The position numbers and the translations under genes are program-made. This document shows, piece by piece, positions 3 through 21,562 of a stretch of DNA of 23,068 nucleotides (within the stretch, counting starts at the first letter, position 1; the number at the start of each line of letters is the position of its first letter). Source of the DNA: Laetiporus sulphureus 93-53 (lineage: Eukaryota > Basidiomycota > Agaricomycetes > Polyporales > Laetiporaceae); contig NW_024468597.1 of assembly GCF_001632365.1 (NCBI RefSeq), forward strand, positions 22,399 to 45,466, in the 5' to 3' direction. The notes beneath the pieces are model-generated. The model made no database searches. It was not told the DNA's origin and was given only the letters and a program-made list of their open reading frames with translations.

Positions 3-3000
3 TCCCACTTGGATGCGGAGCACTTCGAGAACAATGTTCTCTCTAACATTACTGAGGAGCAGCTGCTCAACTCCTTGCATGACTCGCTGGCATGCGAAGG
101 TCGATTAACTGCAAGGATCAAGTCTCAAATGACCAGCATGCATACATTGCTTCACGCATTAAACATGGACTTCGCCATCACTCCTAAGCACGTTGACAAT
201 ACTGGGACCCATGACATCATTCCCTGTAGATCCATGTCTGACTGGAAAGCATCGTTGTCGATGGCGAGAGAACAGGTCATTCGCAATAGATCTGTTGCGG
301 CATCTCGGGTGACACCTGTGGATAAGTCCTCTTCCCACCATGTCACCGTTAATGGGCAAATGCTAAACTGCTTCGTTCCTGATTCCGTCATCGTCTTGAC
401 AAACAGTTCATCACCACGTCCACCTCCGGGCCATGCAACAATCCCGCTGTCAATTGAGGACAGTACGATCGCTCTTGTAATTCACATATTACAGTCATTT
501 AGTCTGAATGTCGAACAGGAACGTGCATTTCACATTATTTCTCGCTGGCTCCTTCACAGAGAGACACATCCATTGCAAATGTATCTCGGAGGACCTGGTG
601 GGACGGGAAAATCTCAAGTCATACGAGCTGTGTCCTCCTTCCTGACTAAACGTGGGATATCATTTCGTCTTATGCTTCTTGCTCCCACAGGCTCTGCTGC
701 ATGTGTAATCTCTGGCTCTACTTATCATTCTGTCCTCGGTTTCAACCATAACTCAGACCATGCTGGATGTTCAAGCGCCGCTGTGTTGTCCAAGGTCCGT
801 GAGCGTCTAGATAACGTAGATGTGGTGTTCATTGACAAAATCTCTATGGTTTCATGTACGGATATGTATCGTATCAGTGCTCAAATCTCTAAGGCGCTCG
901 GCGTGACCGACAAACCGTTTGGTGGCTTGGGGGTCATTCTCGCAGGTGATTTTGCGCAATTACCCCCTGCCGGAAGCGGTGCCTCGTCATTGTATTCAAA
1001 CAGCATTGGTGCATGGTCATCTGCCCATTCATTACATGCCCAGCAGGCTGTGTTAGGTAAAGCACTATGACATCAAGTAACGACAGTTGTTATTTTGAGA
1101 CGTAACATGCGTCAACAGGGATTGACGCCTGAAGACTGTGCTTTTCGCCAAGCGCTGCAGAACATGAGGCTGAAGGCCTGTACGCCTGAAGACATCGCGT
1201 TATTGCGAACGCGTGTTGTCACTTCCGCCGGCTTACATCACTTAATGTCCGATCCCAATTTTCGGAACATATCTATTATCACTGCCCTGAACAGTCACCG
1301 AGACGCTATCAATGAAGTGAGCTCACGTCGCTTTGCTACAGAGAATGGACAACAGCTGGTGCGATTTCATTCCATTGATTCCTGGTCCAATGTCCGTTCG
1401 AGTGACTCACTACGACAGACTCAGCGATTGCAACAACGAGCTGTCGATCCTAATCGATCCTCTGGTGATGTCTTACCAGGAATCCAGGAAATGCTCTGGG
1501 CACTGCCCCCTTCCCTTACTGCTCACCGTGCAGGTATTCTGACACTGTGCAGAGACATGCCGGTTATGCTGAAAAACAACGAGGCAACCGAATTATGTGC
1601 AACCAATGGTGCGGAGGCTTATGTGCTCAGCTGGGATTCACACCAGGATGCAGATGGACATGACATACTGGACACATTATTCGTCCGTCTCAAGAATCCT
1701 CCTCAGGTAGTTCAGCTTCCCGATCTCCCACCGAATGTAATTCCCCTGGTCCATGCAAAGACACATATCAAATGTACGCTTCCCAACGATTGTGTGGTCT
1801 ACATTGATCGCTCGCAGGCAAACGTGCTCCCCAATTTCGCGATGACCGATTTTGGATGCCAGGGGCGGACACGTCCACACAATCCGTGCCATCTTCGCTT
1901 TTGCAAGGGGCACCAGTCACTGTACACTTGCCTGGCACGCAGTGCATCTCTAAAAGGTACGCTGATTCTCGATGGCATCGATGACTCCAAGATCACTGGC
2001 GGTTTGAATGGTGCTCTTAGACGAGAGTTCCGAGAGCTCGAGATTCTGGATGAAATCACTCGGTTGCATCTGGAAGATGCGCTTCCCCCTTCTATCAGCG
2101 GTTGCACGCGGGCGTCATTAGTCAAGACTTTTCAGGCCACAAACGGATGTCAATACATTCCTCATAATGTGGAACAGCTCCTTGACTGGTCACAAGAGCC
2201 CATCTCGTCTCTCCTGCCTCCCCCTGAACCTCCGCACTGGCAATTACTGGGCAAAAAGGTTAAAAGAGATCTCGCAGCGAACAGTAACCGGCCCGAACGT
2301 TCGAAACGACGTACCAAAGATAACTGGCTTCCTCCCTCATCGCTCCCCACGAAGCGCGCTAAAACGATCACGTCCATCTCTGTTCCTACCACTTCGTCTT
2401 CTGCCAAACACGGATCTTCCGTCGTACTGCTCGGGTCTGAACATGCTACGCCTTCGAATCGCGTTCCCTCTGCAACTCCTCCATCCGGTCTGATCTGGGA
2501 CCGGCAGAATTGGAGCTGCGCTTACGATTCGGTGTTAACTGTCCTGTGGAACATCTATGCCGACAGAGGCGGACAGTTTTTTTCCCGCATTGCGTCAGCC
2601 AGTGCCCTGCTGCAGCACGTTGAGGTCAGCTTTCAATCGTGCACAGCTGATCGTCACTTCTTGGAACTAGCACGAAATGCTCTCCGCGACCGTCTCTCAT
2701 CTCTCGAGCTGCAGTCCTTCCCTCGCTCTGGCCCTGTCGGGTGCGCAGCATCTGACCTCGTGGAACGTCTCTTCACCGTCGATCCAACTACCTGCTCATT
2801 AGTGTCTACATGCCTTACATGCCCGGAAGCCACCCTATTAAATCATATGCTCCAGCCGATTGCGAACGTCTCATTCAGCATCTATCCTTTTCACTGGGAC
2901 GACGTCGAACCGCGACCATCCACACAGACCACATCCCAATGCATGCACACTCTCTTCCGTGCACGACGTGCTTCCCGTTGTCAAGCTTGTCATGGGTACA

Positions 3001-3176
3001 CTGAGAGTCGGATCGTGATTCATCGGGCCCCTGCCATTTTTGCCCTGGAAGTACAGTCAGGATCGATACCTGGCCAGCCAATCATTCAAGTACAGAGAAC
3101 GTGTGTGTTAACAACTGATCGTGGAGATGCTAACGACCCACACCCAGGAATCGCCGACGCCGCACAGAACCACTAA
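3..3176 (+). pseudogene. Helitron-type PIF1-like DNA helicase fused to USP-like protease domain, inactivated and 3'-truncated
   Basis: One reading frame runs from the window edge to 3176, broken only by TGA at 1068-1070. It encodes a PIF1-family helicase of the kind carried by fungal Helitrons, which unwinds DNA during rolling-circle transposition. Visible motifs are Walker A GGPGGTGKS (588-614), the Walker B strand VVFID followed by Lys (834-839), GDFAQLPP (motif III), and the late helicase block QGRTRP...LARSASLKGT. Near 2500 a ubiquitin-specific-protease-like (C19) domain starts with Cys box NWSCAYDS (Cys at 2517-2519). It is followed by two CxxC knuckles (2811-2822, 2979-2990) like the USP zinc ribbon. 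No His box follows, and the frame runs into T-poor sequence near 3115. In this family I expect Glu after the Walker B Asp (here Lys), and Trp at the TGA in the conserved ALWHQ...VVILR..MRQ stretch. Both can arise by G-to-A changes. The 5' end lies outside the window. Confidence 0.5.
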
Positions 3177-4895: not shown

Positions 4896-6705
4896 ATGTC
4901 TACAACAGCATCTGAAGCAACCACTCTATTGAAAGAAGGGTGTGTCTCTTCAGATAGTCCAAACTGTACTGCATTGAATAATGTATCGTCAGCTTTATAC
5001 AAGGCTACACTGTTATTGCCGGCGCAGGCCAGTCGGGCATTTCTTGCTCATTACTCGTTGCTCATTTTACGATTTTGCTTCATACAGCGCTCATATTCTT
5101 CAACCATGTCATAACTTCCGGCCAGGAGGTCCAGCTGTTCTGGGGAGAGCGCTCGTTTTCTGCATGGTTGTTCTTTGCCAATCGGATGCTCGCTTTGGGC
5201 TATGCGGCCGTTTCTGTTTGGTCCCTCATGAACTTTGACACAGTAATGGTACGTGAATCAATGTTGTCTCATTTGGATATACCTTCGACCGACTGATATT
5301 GTAGAGGTAAATGGGCTCCTGTTGCCACATTCATTCGCATCTGACTGTTACTATCTCGTAGTTGTATGGCATACTTCGTGACGAGCGCTCTGCTTACCAT
5401 ACTTGCCGACATGATCTTAGGGGGTAGGTTGGCATGCCTCATGACGCATTATCATAGCTCAAATATAGCCAAGTGGTTTCAATTCTGCGAATCTATGCCG
5501 TGACAGGTGGCGATCGACGGCCTGTTATGCTCCTCACACTGCTTCTGGTCTTCAACGTGATTGCAAACATCTACACTGGTATGCTTCCTTCTGATTGGGA
5601 CATATTCTCGATTGGCTTATGTTAAATTTATGCGAAGGCTGCATTGCAATATCATATTCCCTGGTCATTTTGAATAGCACACCCATATGCATCCCGTCCA
5701 GCAGTTCAGCGCAAGATATCGGTACAATGTATGTAAGCCGGTATCTTCAGTAAATCTATACTTCCTTATGTGTTTCTCAATAGATGTGAGTCCGAACCAA
5801 GGCATGCTTTCCTCCATACTCCTTTGATTATTGCACCACAGTGGAAGTACTCACTACGGTCTGTGCTACAATTTTCGACATCATGACGCTTGCAATTCTC
5901 TAGTGCAAGCTATACGTCCACCATAGACCCGCCAATGTTGGCATTCTGTCTACGAAGAAACCATCACTTGCGGCACTACTTCTTAGAGATGGTACGGCTA
6001 TCGGACAATAACTATGGGTCTCTGATCGAATGACACTTTCGGCCATGATTTTCATAGGCACAATTCAGTTGACGTGAGAATGGAATCGAATGCAATTTGT
6101 CATCGTCTGAAGCATATTGTTCAGAGCTCTAATGCTACTGAACTTACTTACAATTGTATTGAACTTCCTGAACCTCGTAAGTGTATGCCCTTTCAATCCA
6201 TCCTATATCTTCCACTAGATCCTGATTGCTCTGCCATACATGATTCTGAACACGGTAGACTGTTGCAAATATCGTCGCTGATTGGGAATACTCGTGAAAC
6301 AATCCTCTTGCATTTTATCTACCAATGGCACACTGACAATTTTACAGACTAGTTCCCATTCTGATCTCTCGTATCCTCCTCAACATCTGAGCCGCCGCGC
6401 GATCCACACGCGGAGAGCAGTCTCAAACGCCCTCCTTCGTCCGGTCGCAGAATGGGCCCCAGACACAAGCGGACGTCGAGAACATGTCATTCGAATTGAA
6501 CATCCTCAGCAGCACCGAACAAGCTCAGCAGACCGATCTCGCTCATGCGTCAGGCTCCATTGAACATGATCAAATCATTGCCGAACCGCGCAACATGGCA
6601 GACAATGTTGCTATCGTTGGCGATGCTCATCAGGACATCAACGAGGAAGAGAGGATGGGCGAAGTCGAGGAAGAGATGCTATCGGATGAGGAGAACGATG
6701 TGTGA
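4896..6705 (+). pseudogene. DUF6533-type seven-membrane-segment protein, copy 1: two in-frame stops
   Basis: Exons by homology to copies 2 and 3: 4896-4939, 4993-5027, 5088-5248, 5305-5306, 5362-5423, 5474-5578, 5638-5728, 5784-5785, 5842-5991, 6058-6073, 6125-6176, 6259-6293, 6348-6705. They sum to 1113 nt, an exact multiple of 3, so splicing still works on paper. TAG at 5901-5903 replaces the Trp of ILWYKL in membrane segment 5. TGA at 6388-6390 replaces an Arg (CGA in copy 2) just after segment 7. Intron 2 has a GC donor (GCCAGT). The DUF6533 region in exons 2-3 reads LIFFNHVITSGQEVQLFW. The acidic tail (ending SDEENDV) is still open. A truncated product ending in segment 5 is possible, but recent inactivation is the simpler reading. 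Function of the family is unknown. Confidence 0.5.
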
Positions 6706-9707: not shown

Positions 9708-11508
9708 ATGTCTGTCGCCGCCTCCGAAGCAATCACCTTTTTGGACAATTCGTGCGTCTTTAGATAGTTGAGATGCGTTGCATTAAATGATGCATTATCA
9801 GCTTTACAGCAAGCTATGCTTTTGTAGCCGGCGCAGGTTAATCGGACACTTATCGGTTAACACTGACTGATTGTTGACGTTTCCATTCAAACAGCGCTCA
9901 TATTGTTCGACCATGCCATAACATTTGGCCAGCAGGTCCAATTGTTCTGGGCCGAGAGGTCGTTCTCCACATGGTTGTTTTTTGCTAATCAGGCGCTTTC
10001 ACTGAGCTATGCGATCATTTCCGTTTTGTCCCTCGTGAACTTTAGCACAGTAACCGTACGTGGAACCATATTGTCTCGCATGGATACACCTTCGACTTAC
10101 AAACATTGCAGGGGCGAGTTGTTTCCTGTTGTCACATAAATTCGCGTCTAACTATTCTTACGTTGTAGTTGTATGGCAAGCCTCGTGATGAGCGGACTGC
10201 TTAGAATACTCACCGGAGCAATCTCAGAAAGTAAGCTAGTGTGCTTCATGAAACATTCTCACAGCTCAAACATAGCGAAGCGGCTACAATATTGCGAATA
10301 TATGCCGTGACAGGTGGTGATCGAAGGCTTGTTATCCTCCTTGCACTGCTTGCGGTCTTCAATGTGATCACAAACGTCTACGTCTGTACGTTTCCTCCTG
10401 ATTGGGACATGTTTTGATTGACTTATCATGAATTCATGAAAAGGCTTCACCCGAGTGTCGTATTCTGTGTTTGTACTGGATGGCGCAGAAATATGCACCG
10501 AGTCCAGCAGTCCTAGTTCAGTGGAAGATGTCATTGCAAAGTATAAAAGCCACTTATTTCAGTGAATCTGAACTTGCTTATCTGATTCTCAATAGATGTT
10601 AGTCAGAACTCGGGATTTCTTGCCTCCATATTTCATTGACAATTGCACCGCAGTGGACAAAGTCAATGCGGCCTGTGGTTCACTTTTCGCCATCATGGCG
10701 CTCGCAATTCTCTGGTACAAGCTATATGATCGCCATAGACCAGCCGTGGTTGACATCCTGTCTACGAGGAATCCATCGCTTGCGGCACTGCTACTCAGAG
10801 ATGGTACGGATATCTGACAATGACTGTGGGTCTCTGAGCTCGAATGACATTTGTGCCCACTATTTTCACAGGCACGATTCAATTAACGTGAGACGTAGTG
10901 TTGACATGAGTTGGCAACGTCTGAAGCACATTATTTAGAGCTCTATTACTAATGAGCTTACTTGCGACTGTGTTAGACTTCCTGGACATCGTAAGTGCAT
11001 GCACCCTATATTATCCGCTGGATCCTAACTAATCTGTCGTACATGATTATGGACATGCTAGAATGTCGAAAATGTCGTCGCTTATTTGGAATTTTCGTGG
11101 GGCAATCTTCTTACATTTTCTCTGCCAATGACACACTGAAGATTCTACAGACTCACTCCCGTTCTGATCTCTCGTGCTCTCCTCAACATCCGAGCCGCAG
11201 CGCGGTCCACACGAGGAGAACAGTCCCAAACGCCCTCCTTCGTCCAGTCAGACCGAGGGCTCCAGTCACAAGCAGACGTCGAGAACATGTCGTTCGAATT
11301 GAACATCCTCGGCAGCACCGAACAAGCCCGGGAGACTGATCGCACTCACCCACAAGACTCTGCGGAACATGATGAAATCATTGCCGAACCGCGCAACATG
11401 GCAGACAATGCTGCTATCGCGGGCGATGCTCATCAGGACGTGAACGAGGAAGAGGGGATGGACGAAGTCGAGGAAGAGATGATGTCGGATTGGGAGAATG
11501 ACGAGTGA
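9708..11508 (+). CDS. DUF6533-type seven-membrane-segment protein, copy 2 (intact, 13 exons)
   Basis: Exons: 9708-9751, 9802-9836, 9895-10055, 10112-10113, 10169-10230, 10281-10385, 10444-10540, 10596-10597, 10654-10803, 10872-10887, 10939-10990, 11062-11096, 11151-11508. They total 1119 nt, giving 372 aa. Introns are 50-71 nt. Exons 2-3 carry the DUF6533 signature (ALILFDHAITFGQQVQLFW). Seven hydrophobic segments follow the family pattern: exons 2-3, 3, 5-6 (ending ILRIYAV), 6, 9 (FAIMALAILWYKLY), 10-11 and 12-13 (PVLISRALLNI). The tail is acidic and ends SDWENDE. Members of this family are membrane proteins of unknown function in Agaricomycetes. Exons 4 and 8 are only 2 nt, and both are needed to keep frame. 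Intron 4 has a GC donor (GCGAGT); intron 5 needs an AAG acceptor. The start is the first ATG after the TATA box and is shared with copy 1. Confidence 0.5.
10112..10113 (+). other. 2-nt exon 4 of copy 2 (microexon A)
   Basis: GG sits between TTGCAG and donor GCGAGT. It supplies the first two bases of a Gly codon completed by T at 10169, followed by the conserved Cys. Exon 3 ends in phase 0 and exon 5 is open only in the frame needing two extra bases. Copy 1 has AG (5305-5306), copy 3 AG (21149-21150). Confidence 0.5.
10596..10597 (+). other. 2-nt exon 8 of copy 2 (microexon B)
   Basis: AT lies between CTCAATAG and donor GTTAGT. Its A completes a Lys codon begun by AA at the end of exon 7, and its T begins a Leu codon finished by TG at 10654. 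Copy 1 has AT (5784-5785), copy 3 GT (20659-20660). Flanking introns are 55 and 56 nt. Confidence 0.5.
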
Positions 11509-14473: not shown

Positions 14474-15499
14474 ATGGTGGCCGCCGCCGCCACCATGATT
14501 TTTGCCTCCGCATCCCGCGCCACCGCCGCTCCTGCTGCCGGCGCCTTCCCGATGCTTGGCCGCGCAGACCGCAGGCACTCTGCGCATGGCGGCCGCGCGC
14601 ACACCGATACCGACACCGCCCCAGCCGGCAAGCCCGCCTTGAGAGGGACGGTCACGCTCACCGCAGACCAGTTCACTCACCTCCTCTCGCTCATCCACTT
14701 CCCCTCCGCCGCATCTCTCACCCGCTCCCCAGCCGCCACCCGTTCGCCTGCTCCTCCACTCGTCCGTGCGCGCTCGAGCCCGCTGCCTGTCTCGCCAAAG
14801 ACCGAGCACCAGTTCCCGGCATTCAGCGCATACCCGAACGCGAAGACGAGCCCGTCCGTTGCGGGAAAATCTTTGCCTGAGCTGTTTCCCACGGTCGAGC
14901 CGGGCGTGCTGCTCGATATTGCACGGCACGCGTTCGATCCGTACGATCTCTACAAGCTCGACGCGAACTACCGCGCACACGTGTTGGAGCACGCCTCCCT
15001 TACGCCGCTCCCGGCGTCCCCCCTCCCATTCTCCTCGTTTCCCTCCGCATTCGCACAGCACGCACTCGGCCCACGCGAGTTCATCATGCGCTTCTACCCC
15101 TCCTTGTCCTCGCTCTTCGCCCCACTCTCAACGTACTTCCGCATTCTCCTTGCCTTTACCGCCTCTTCCGGCTCTGTCGACGCTACACACACCCTCGCAT
15201 CTGCCACCAAGGAGTACCTTGCTCGTCTCGTGTCGTTCAGTGAGGAGTATCACTGGTCTGTAGTCCTTCCGTATCACATGGCGTTTCATGAAAAGCGGCT
15301 AGACGAGATGCGCAAGGGAGAGTTTGACGGCTGGGCAGAAGTGGACTTGACGCTGTTGGTGAAGTTCTTGGAGGACGAAGAGGCGCATAAAGAGGCCGAA
15401 GAAGATACTGAAGGAAGTACGATCGACAGCGAGGAGATGAATGTGCGGAGCGCCGACGTTGACGCCCCGGGGGGCGGACGGCCCGTTGCCGCTTTATAA
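14474..15499 (+). CDS. GC-rich single-exon gene, Gag-like or conserved fungal protein of unknown function
   Basis: One uninterrupted 341-codon frame with strongly C-ended codons. Residues 1-50 are Ala-rich and low complexity. Near 58-75 is a short block (TVTLTADQFTHLLSLIHF). A Pro/Ser/Ala linker follows, then a conserved-looking helical region: FPTVEPGVLLDIARHAFDP, YDLYKLDANYR, REFIMRFYPSLSSLFAPLST, and YHWSVVLPYHMAFHEKRLDEMR followed by GEFDGW. The C-terminus is acidic and disordered. From memory, the DLYKLD and YHxxxHxxR(M) pattern resembles Agaricomycete proteins often found with retroelements, so Gag-like is a tentative label. No polymerase, zinc knuckle or LTR is seen nearby. The second ATG (14495) has an ideal context, GCCGCCGCCGCCACCATGA, and may be the true start, giving 334 aa. 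Composition differs sharply from its neighbours. Confidence 0.5.
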   Translation: MVAAAATMIFASASRATAAPAAGAFPMLGRADRRHSAHGGRAHTDTDTAPAGKPALRGTVTLTADQFTHLLSLIHFPSAASLTRSPAATRSPAPPLVRARSSPLPVSPKTEHQFPAFSAYPNAKTSPSVAGKSLPELFPTVEPGVLLDIARHAFDPYDLYKLDANYRAHVLEHASLTPLPASPLPFSSFPSAFAQHALGPREFIMRFYPSLSSLFAPLSTYFRILLAFTASSGSVDATHTLASATKEYLARLVSFSEEYHWSVVLPYHMAFHEKRLDEMRKGEFDGWAEVDLTLLVKFLEDEEAHKEAEEDTEGSTIDSEEMNVRSADVDAPGGGRPVAAL

Positions 15500-19685: not shown

Positions 19686-21562
19686 TCATTCCTCATCGTA
19701 ATAATCTGTCTCCCAATCATCCTCTTCTTCGAAACGGTTGATAGCCACTCGCTCCAGGTCCTCCCCGTGCGTCTCTCCCGAGCGTTCAGTCGTCATGCTT
19801 TCCGGAGCTTCTGCGTTTTCATGGTTACAAACCTTAGCAGAAGGACCGGCGATGACTCCCTCATCAATGATAGCATTCGACTGGTCCATACGGGCCATGG
19901 AACGTCTTGCCTCCATTCCCGACGCGATGATGCTGTTCAAGGAATCGGAAGGGATTATGAGGTCGGGAAGATGTGCCTCAGTCTGGACTCCATGACCCGA
20001 GCGCACGAATGATGGAGTGCTGGATTGTTCTCCACGTGTAGCCATTGCTGTCTCATGGATGTTCAGCAGCATACGAGAGACGAGGATGGCAACAAGCCTG
20101 GGAGATAAATTAGAGATTGTTTTGGTTTCAACCAGAAATCGTGAAGGCTGACGGTGGTTGCAAGTTGTTGAAGATGTATTGACCTTGCTAGAATGTGGAA
20201 GTGCACGGTAACATAACGTACCAGAAGTTCAGCATTATCAACAGGGATTTGATTTGAGAGCTAGTATGCTAACCTGATCAGCAATGGACAGCACTTCTCC
20301 GACCACATTCATGAGTAACAATGTTCTGTGGCTATCTTTCAGTTTTACTCCAGACGTGAGTGCGGGTCTCGCACATGAATTGAATTGTGCCTACAAGAAG
20401 GATAAAGACAGATCAGCCAGCATTACACACGACACTGCCTCATGTTCTCACCATCCCGTAGTAGCAATATTGCAAGCGATGACTTTCGCGGAAATATTGT
20501 AGGAGAAGTCAAGCTGAGACTGCTGGCCAGCGTTCTCCAAATGATGCCAATCACCGCGATGTTGGCAACCATAGAAACTACGAGGGATGCAATAGACACT
20601 ATTATGCAATCGTCAAGATAGGCTCATTTCGGGAAGATAGTCCTTGTATTCAGCTTACACCTGAACGTTTACGGATGAGAAGGAGAAAGAAGGATTAGAT
20701 GGATCGAACGTTTACTTTGAGGAGGTGTTCGCAAAGGAGTCTTGTGTGAAACCGTTGCATACCGCGGTTGGTCCTAGAACGATGACCTCGTACGATATGT
20801 TCACAAATGCTTTTCGCAAAGACAGAGCTGATGAGGAGATGATTTGTTCAGGAACATTTTCGGCATGAAACGTACCGAACACAGTATTAAACCCGATCAT
20901 TGCAACAAATAGCAGCGCTAAAGGTATCGTAGGACGCCAATCGCGAGAGGTTATTGCATAAACTCGCAATAACGTGACCACTGGCGCAAGATATCAGCGA
21001 CTTTCTGGAGTTCAAAGAACACAAACGTGCCTCCGGATACTATCGAAATAGCGAGGTCGCTACCGTATAAAATGTTTGATACCATCTCACAGCTGAAACT
21101 TAGGCATTGATAACGTTCGACGCAGCATCATACACTTGGGCAACTAACCTCTATTAAAATGTGCTGTCACAAGACCATGATATGTAGAGTTTTAGAATAA
21201 CACCTACGGCCGTAGAGTGAACATTGATCAAGGATACAACCGACGATGTGCCATAAACGAGAGCAGCCAGTCGATTGATGAAGAACAGAATTGTTGAGGG
21301 TGTTCGGTTTGACCACATGAATTTGACCTCTTGACCGAGCGTGATGACATGTTCGTAGAACATGAGCGCTATATACGACCGTTATTACGACGTAGTATAA
21401 TCAGAAACGCAGATAGTACTAACCTGCTCCAGCTGCAAGGGCACAATTCGATATGAAGCTATGTGAGATACACCTTGAGTTCGATGGATAAGCCATTGGA
21501 GAACATTAGCGAGCTCACCTATCCTCAAATAAAGCGATTGCGTCATAGTTCGCGCTGGCCAT
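19686..21562 (-). CDS. DUF6533-type seven-membrane-segment protein, copy 3 (intact, 13 exons, minus strand)
   Basis: Exons in transcript order: 21562-21519, 21458-21424, 21368-21208, 21150-21149, 21092-21031, 20980-20876, 20809-20716, 20660-20659, 20598-20452, 20390-20375, 20325-20274, 20187-20153, 20097-19686. They total 1167 nt, giving 388 aa. Exon lengths equal those of copy 2 except exons 7 (94), 9 (147) and 13 (412), all frame-preserving. The DUF6533 signature reads ALMFYEHVITLGQEVKFMW, followed by TPSTILFFINRLAALVYG. Segment 3 ends LLRVYAIT, segment 5 contains SMVANIAVIGIIW, segment 7 AILVSRMLLNI. The tail is longer than in copy 2 and ends WETDYYDEE. Intron 5 has a GC donor (GCACGT). 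It is the most diverged of the three and an independent check on the 2-nt exons. Function is unknown. Confidence 0.5.
20659..20660 (-). other. 2-nt exon 8 of copy 3 (microexon B)
   Basis: GT (minus strand) follows CGTTCAG and precedes donor GTAAGC. G completes Lys (AA+G) and T starts Leu (T+TG), the same split as in copy 2. The following 60-nt intron has TTGAC near its acceptor, aligned with the same motif in copy 2. Confidence 0.5.
21149..21150 (-). other. 2-nt exon 4 of copy 3 (microexon A)
   Basis: AG (minus strand) sits between TTTTAATAG and donor GTTAGT. Joined to C at 21092 it makes Ser before the conserved Cys. Flanking introns are 57 and 56 nt. Confidence 0.5.

Follow-up and report, generated by a model that had tools for sequence, protein, structure and literature searches.

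The window analysed here is a 23,068 nt stretch of contig C88 in the genome sequence of Laetiporus sulphureus 93-53 (38.6 Mb, 124 contigs), which was surveyed as a whole. It carries three copies of a gene for a DUF6533 protein (Pfam PF20151): copy A at approximately 4896-6705 and copy B at 9708..11508, both on the + strand, and copy C on the - strand. Copy C corresponds to LAESUDRAFT_732482 of L. sulphureus 93-53 (100% identity, 88% of the query covered) and scores 49.8 bits against DUF6533, with 35.1 bits for copy B, both above the curated cut-off of 24.1 bits. Genome-wide there are 115 DUF6533 matches at E <= 0.01, 112 of which, by our own count of rows, are above the Pfam cut-off. At the start of the window there is an ORF for a PIF1-like helicase (3-1070, + strand; PF05970, 75 bits), which terminates in a stop codon (1068-1070), and behind it lies a 693 amino acid ORF without a Pfam match (1095-3176, + strand); together these look like an interrupted Helitron-type element adjoining the DUF6533 array. 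A 341 amino acid intronless ORF (14474-15499, + strand), also without a Pfam match, lies between copies B and C.

As modelled, copy B encodes its DUF6533 protein in 13 exons. Exons 1 (9708-9751, 44 nt), 2 (9802-9836, 35 nt), and 3 (9895-10055, 161 nt) are followed by an exon 4 of 2 nt (10112-10113), where GG supplies positions 1 and 2 of a Gly codon and the donor is of the GC type (GCGAGT). Beyond exons 5 (10169-10230, 62 nt), 6 (10281-10385, 105 nt), and 7 (10444-10540, 97 nt) are intron 7 (10541-10595, 55 nt, GTATAA...ATAG), a second exon of 2 nt, exon 8 (10596-10597, AT), and intron 8 (10598-10653, 56 nt, GTTAGT...GCAG). The gene is completed by exons 9 (10654-10803, 150 nt), 10 (10872-10887, 16 nt), 11 (10939-10990, 52 nt), 12 (11062-11096, 35 nt), and 13 (11151-11505, 355 nt), with a stop codon at 11506-11508.

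The order of the 13 exons is the same in copy C, with slight differences in length. Here exon 4 is AG (21149-21150, - strand), the first two bases of a Ser codon, AGC, and exon 8 is GT (20659-20660, - strand), between intron 7 (20661-20715, - strand, 55 nt) and intron 8 (20599-20658, - strand, 60 nt, donor GTAAGC); exon 9 (20452-20598, - strand) is 147 nt and exon 10 (20375-20390, - strand) is 16 nt. An exon 10 of 16 nt is placed in nearly all of the paralogs modelled, including copies B and C. In both copies exon 7 ends with AA, two bases into a codon, and exon 9 starts with TG, the last two bases of a codon. The A of exon 8 in copy B completes AAA (Lys) and the T begins TTG (Leu), while in copy C the G completes AAG (Lys) and the T again begins TTG (Leu). 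The sequences around exon 8, AG|AT|GTTAGT in copy B and AG|GT|GTAAGC in copy C, are acceptable splice sites within introns of 55-60 nt. Both copies are open over exons 1-11 when exons 4 and 8 are included, and dropping either causes a frameshift; in the case of exon 8 this is immediate, with a stop 25 codons later in copy B and 70 codons later in copy C.

Copy A has an exon 4 of AG (5305-5306, + strand) and an exon 8 of AT (5784-5785, + strand) with intact splice sites, in which the first base completes an Ile codon and the second begins a Leu codon, TTG. This copy is interrupted by in-frame stops in exon 9 (TAG) and exon 13 (TGA), and although its splice sites are otherwise good it is probably a pseudogene. 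The intron before exon 8 is 55 nt in each of the three copies. The sequence-only reading, for which these three copies were available, had placed a 2 nt exon at each of the exon 8 positions given here, with the donors GTGAGT, GTTAGT, and GTAAGC downstream in copies A, B, and C, introns of 56-60 nt after them, and a split between an Ile or Lys codon and a Leu codon. All of this is borne out, the introns measuring 56, 56, and 60 nt. That exon 8 is required for the frame, as was also claimed, is true of copies B and C, where its loss shifts the frame, but copy A carries in-frame stops.

The models of copies A, B, and C were made by hand before any public protein was examined. The public protein for copy C, P0001, is reproduced through both 2 nt exons (the first 300 of 360 residues were compared and are identical), and that for copy B, P0049 (LAESUDRAFT_732477), reads ...VEDVIAKLDKVNAACGS..., that is, through exon 8, such that the exon 8 first proposed from the DNA is matched exactly in both. 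P0001 is without exons 1 and 2, however, and P0049 is without exons 10 and 12 and part of exon 11, which means that these are not clean full-length transcript models. P0049 also skips exon 4, with exon 3 lengthened by 17 nt instead. Elsewhere, P0007 (L084) uses exon 4, but has Thr-Val at the exon 8 site (site B, the exon 4 site being site A) where the DNA model gives Thr-Leu, and no splice choice giving this Val was found at site B of L084. P0052 (L013) fits exon 8, although a donor at +2 would give an identical protein. Neither 2 nt exon is used in P0002 (L094), which has a 23 nt exon 4 and has lost nearly all of exon 7, or in P0051 (L009), which has single introns at both sites and a long frameshifted stretch between them. 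P0015 (L058) has no 2 nt exon at site A and aligns irregularly around site B, and in P0053 and P0056 the region between or around the sites is read otherwise than modelled. The public annotation is inconsistent, supporting the 2 nt exons for some genes while missing them for others.

The frame requirement, the splice sites, the conservation among paralogs, and the agreement of the public models for copies B and C are all seen in the sequence for exon 8. Taken together, these suggest, with a probability that we put at about 0.9, that exon 8 is a real and constitutive 2 nt coding exon in a 13-exon DUF6533 gene, and that exon 4 is another.

The wider family was modelled using a purpose-written spliced protein-to-DNA aligner in which exons of any length are permitted. 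The 59 loci modelled comprise the three window copies, 15 loci of similar DNA, the 40 highest-ranking DUF6533 matches from beyond the window, and L094; by our own count, 58 of the 115 DUF6533 matches are outside the modelled set. Queries came from other genes only, never from the gene being modelled, and their micro-exon codons were replaced by X. Where there was no close query, exon 4 was misplaced in copies B and C and exon 8 in copy A, and the models used are those from close queries with masked codons. Both 2 nt exons are present at the same two positions in 44 of the 59 loci. A further 7 loci have one only (exon 4 in L056, L067, L074, L090, and L091; exon 8 in L019 and L054), and the remaining 8 have neither. 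These counts lean towards the pattern since the choice of queries favoured genes already having both exons. The claim that a second 2 nt exon exists in the same genes is upheld at the level of sequence, and the number of loci that have both would suggest that exons 4 and 8 are an old feature of the gene family. The sequence-only reading was right on the sequence and largely right on its meaning.

Among the eight loci with neither exon, L020 and L023 are damaged, and L059, L061, L063, L068, L079, and L086 are poorly aligned. By eye, motifs resembling the site B exon can be made out in some of the eight. As one control, the final models place internal 2 nt exons elsewhere at just two loci, L067 with two and L086 with one, to which an earlier round of alignment added L064 and L079. 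As another, an extra locus, L095, was modelled from its paralog L015 with the codons masked, and residues 1-242 are those of public protein P0054, with both 2 nt exons (AG and AT); the P0054 sequence was known before the L095 DNA was modelled, but it was not an input. The exon-7 donor of L095 is GTTTGT, and there is therefore no donor at +2.

Exon 4 is AG in 38 of 49 genes, and supplies codon positions 1 and 2, in most cases of a Ser codon, directly before a conserved Cys (the residue after site A being Cys in 47/49). Exon 8 is more varied, being AT in 18, AC in 11, and GT in 6 of 46 genes, with Lys-Leu as the residue pair at site B in 23. Skipping exon 8 leads to a premature stop in 39 of the 46 genes that have it. 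Of the 44 models with both exons, 42 are stop-free over the part modelled, roughly exons 1-12; L010 and L011 have a stop just past that part. Pairwise identity among these models ranges from 13 to 94%, with a median of 26%, and they fall into 10 groups at 40%.

That the genes have decayed, with the frame logic no longer under selection and the element present by chance or shared descent, is a very improbable explanation of these data. There are in-frame stops in copy A and in the longest models of L010, L011, L017, and L019, and the codon-position bias in the near group is weak (0.326, 0.301, and 0.267 in exon 7; 0.196, 0.218, and 0.262 in exon 9), too weak for the bias in substitutions to serve as proof of the frame, a use for which it was dropped. 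Against decay, there are the 42 stop-free models with both exons, the conservation of the residues encoded by the split codons, and the fact that both positions are common to distant subfamilies.

Chance was assessed using 300 dinucleotide shuffles per gene, searched for AG-NN-G[TC] elements flanked on each side by an intron of 44 nt or more. Any such element occurs in 11.2% of shuffles at site A and 6.9% at site B (for site B a mean over 46 genes), and one that also has a GTRnG donor in 1.3% and 0.6%, respectively; these values, like those for conservation, are descriptive and not probabilities, as the paralogs are related and tests overstate significance. Of 18 aligned copies, 16 retain an intact exon 8 element in the same position, the exceptions being L020, which lacks the acceptor AG, and L023, which is rearranged. 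Among 15 near copies, the block from -3 to +8 at site B has an identity of 0.952, first of the 94 intron windows of 11 nt, compared with 0.716 and 0.732 in the flanking intron bodies. The signal is weaker at site A, where among 14 copies the block has an identity of 0.787 against 0.673 and 0.724 in the intron bodies, and the best window (0.893) starts 8 nt upstream of the exon.

These data also bear on the possibility that exons 7 and 9 are joined across a single long intron, the frame being restored by a shift of its donor or acceptor and the AG-NN-GT element left unused, which we consider improbable, though less so than decay. In eight paralogs (L013, L014, L015, L016, L018, L019, L021, and L022) the exon-7 donor is GTGT, which creates a second donor 2 nt downstream; splicing from it would leave the residues unchanged with exon 8 omitted, which makes these loci natural bypass candidates. 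L020 also has GTGTGT there, with its exon-8 acceptor lost, but is damaged elsewhere. A GC-donor intron of 114 nt (GCCACT) in copy B costs only 4.4 alignment points, and the single introns of P0051 at L009 are in keeping with such a reading. Yet all eight GTGT copies retain the element, as AG|NN|GTGAGT, the +2 GT is absent from copies A, B, and C, L009-L012, and L095, the element is the most conserved stretch of intron in the near group, and the reading frame of P0051 is shifted between the two sites. Frame-keeping single introns with canonical sites shifted by up to 45 nt were enumerated in 49 genes for site A and 46 for site B, all chosen for having the 2 nt exon. Many of these genes offer such an alternative, but the reading was rejected, the best-shared alternative being found in 18/49 and 13/46, respectively; no one alternative is common to more than 13 of the 46 genes at site B. 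There is no in-frame single-intron alternative with a GTRnG donor in 23/49 genes at site A and 26/46 at site B.

Destroying the exon-8 acceptor has a large cost in copy C (35.8 alignment points), L080 (46.3), and L083 (30.5), and a small one in copy B (4.4), copy A (3.5), and the GTGT copies (0.8 to 3.3); for the exon-4 acceptor the losses are 6.3 in copy B, 8.9 in copy C, and 0.3 in L011. The small costs are explained by alternative choices of splice site that can patch the frame. At the nine loci inspected, these patches involve poorer sites, residues that are lost, changed, or added, or another tiny exon.

Retention of a neighbouring intron was also tried and rejected: at site A the preceding intron is in frame and open in 1/49 genes and the following intron in 0/49, and at site B in 0/46 and 5/46, respectively. 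Among the matches listed, no intron-free copy joining exons 7, 8, and 9 was seen. Recursive splice sites, or zero-length exons, in the long introns of animals consist of an acceptor and then a donor, and are removed sequentially with no coding bases kept. The 2 nt exons differ in that two coding bases are retained, and a zero-length exon was rejected here since these bases are needed for the frame. The same requirement leaves hardly any credence for a stwintron, in which introns are nested and no exon is left between them: two abutting U2-type introns of approximately 55 nt would need successive splicing, as do ascomycete stwintrons in the part of that account available (PMC6616335), but removal of everything between exons 7 and 9 leaves the frame 2 nt short and breaks copies B and C.

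If exon 8 is a coding exon, it would sit between two ordinary short U2-type introns of 55 and 56-60 nt, each of which may be recognised separately by intron definition, with no special factor required. The introns flanking the 2 nt exons have median lengths of 54.5 to 57 nt, and in fungi with short introns the splice sites are described, in the passages available, as pairing across the intron (PMC6616335). With only 2 nt between them, the two neighbouring introns would not have room to be processed simultaneously, and would presumably be removed one after the other. The order of removal may be free, because removal of one would leave a normal pair of splice sites for the other. We infer that splicing is sequential, that either order works, and that the bases of exon 8 are present in the mature mRNA, where they would restore the frame, at site B with one base completing a Lys-type codon and the other beginning a Leu-type codon; skipping of exon 8 would shift the frame.

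The two sites differ in their donors. Exon 8 ends in a pyrimidine (T or C) in 44/46 genes, and the donor after it is GTRAGY in 32/44, compared with 81/319 for the other introns of the same models, some of the latter being doubtful introns close to model ends. The donor after exon 4 is weak, with GTRnG in 16/44 against 236/319 in that same comparison set, and is GC in 5/44. AG is the exonic consensus before a donor. A strong donor after exon 8, which rarely ends in G, and a weak one after exon 4, which is mostly AG, can be read as compensation for U1 pairing. Motifs resembling branch sites are above the shuffle expectation in three of the four classes of intron (28, 33, and 32 of 44, against approximately 13), while those before exon 4 are not above chance (15/44, with 13.8 expected from shuffles).

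A tree was made from 42 models of L. sulphureus genes together with 18 proteins of other origin. In it, L057 and L058 cluster with proteins from Amylocystis, Daedalea, Rhodofomes, and Fomitopsis and with that of one further contig (support 95/86), and branch apart from the other L. sulphureus groups having both exons, although several of the deep branches are long or open. If this grouping is right, then the 2 nt exons would be older than those polypore splits. Four of the proteins from other sources (P0003, P0004, P0008, and P0010) align without gaps at both sites, while others are gapped or have extra residues; the gap-free alignments demonstrate a shared frame and not shared exons. P0003, 355 residues from a 1472 nt contig and gap-free through both sites, is probably from spliced RNA. 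On this evidence it is an even bet whether the DUF6533 family, with its 115 matches, has kept two obligatory 2 nt exons in each gene from a time that precedes the divergence of its subfamilies and of several polypore lineages.

Exons of less than a codon have been reported in plants. The 1 nt exon of Arabidopsis APC11 (Guo and Liu 2015, PMC4674806) is, as far as the available text goes, similar in being constitutive, located between two introns, required for the frame, and missed in annotation, and its authors favoured intron definition with the introns removed one after another. It differs in that there is one such exon of 1 nt in a plant gene, with an upstream intron of approximately 333 nt, whereas the DUF6533 genes have two exons of 2 nt each, in dozens of paralogs of a fungus, among introns of approximately 55 nt. 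The conserved plant 1 nt microexons in APC11 and VPS55 (Yu et al. 2022, PMC8831610) are likewise very small, conserved, and missed by annotation, and the VPS55 exon is followed by a strong conserved donor (GTRAGT), comparable to the strong donor after exon 8. In the portions available, those are two clusters of single 1 nt exons, rather than two exons per gene, and the term 2-nt is absent (PMC8831610).

In fungi, the ascomycete stwintrons share with the DUF6533 genes short U2 introns and successive splicing by intron definition, but are nested with no exon between, where the DUF6533 genes keep two bases (PMC6616335, in the part available). The P450 genes of Phanerochaete chrysosporium are also a basidiomycete family with very small exons and introns of 45-55 bp, the shortest exon in the available passages being 6 bp as opposed to 2 nt (PMC1184071). 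In Trichoderma virens, inclusion of the Xlr2 microexon alters the protein, although there it is a regulated switch in a single ascomycete gene; its authors considered functional microexons to be previously undescribed in filamentous fungi, and a 2 nt exon is not found in the passages available (PMC11121469). No 2 nt exon was found in the accessible parts of the open-licence literature, nor are tiny exons reported in the passages of DUF6533 literature found. Exons of 1 nt are already known in plants. The wider finding here, beyond the three window copies, is what appears to be a pair of 2 nt exons common to most of the DUF6533 members examined.

DUF6533 appears to be a large receptor-like family, the predicted fold of which resembles GPCRs at modest scores. 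The structure model of P0001, the protein of copy C, has a mean pLDDT of 73.3, with seven long helices, a hairpin, and a long low-confidence tail. In a Foldseek search the 50 matches listed are GPCRs by title (best E 6.7e-5), with modest query TM-scores of 0.29-0.44. In this model, using our numbering of the helices, the residues encoded across the 2 nt exons lie where the third helix begins and inside the fifth. SNB1 of Coprinopsis cinerea, which is required for patterning of the fruiting body, contains DUF6533 according to the passages available (PMC10949477), and the involvement of the domain in a fruiting-body protein means that correct gene models matter. If the 2 nt exons are real, several public models of the family are wrong, such as that of L009 with its long frameshifted middle.

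If this reading is true, 2 nt exons would be no lone curiosity, but a regular and old trait of a gene family, present in many copies. There would be dozens of natural variants, with exons of AT, AC, GT, CT, and TT, GT and GC donors, and the GTGT bypass candidates, in which the requirements of the spliceosome at the smallest exon sizes could be worked out, and an almost untested extreme of splicing would become easy to study in a wood-decay fungus. Were the pair also to have been retained throughout the family, there would be well over a hundred 2 nt exons in the genome, kept for a long time despite two exact splicing events each and a frameshift whenever one is skipped, and these tiny exons may gate receptor expression through splicing.
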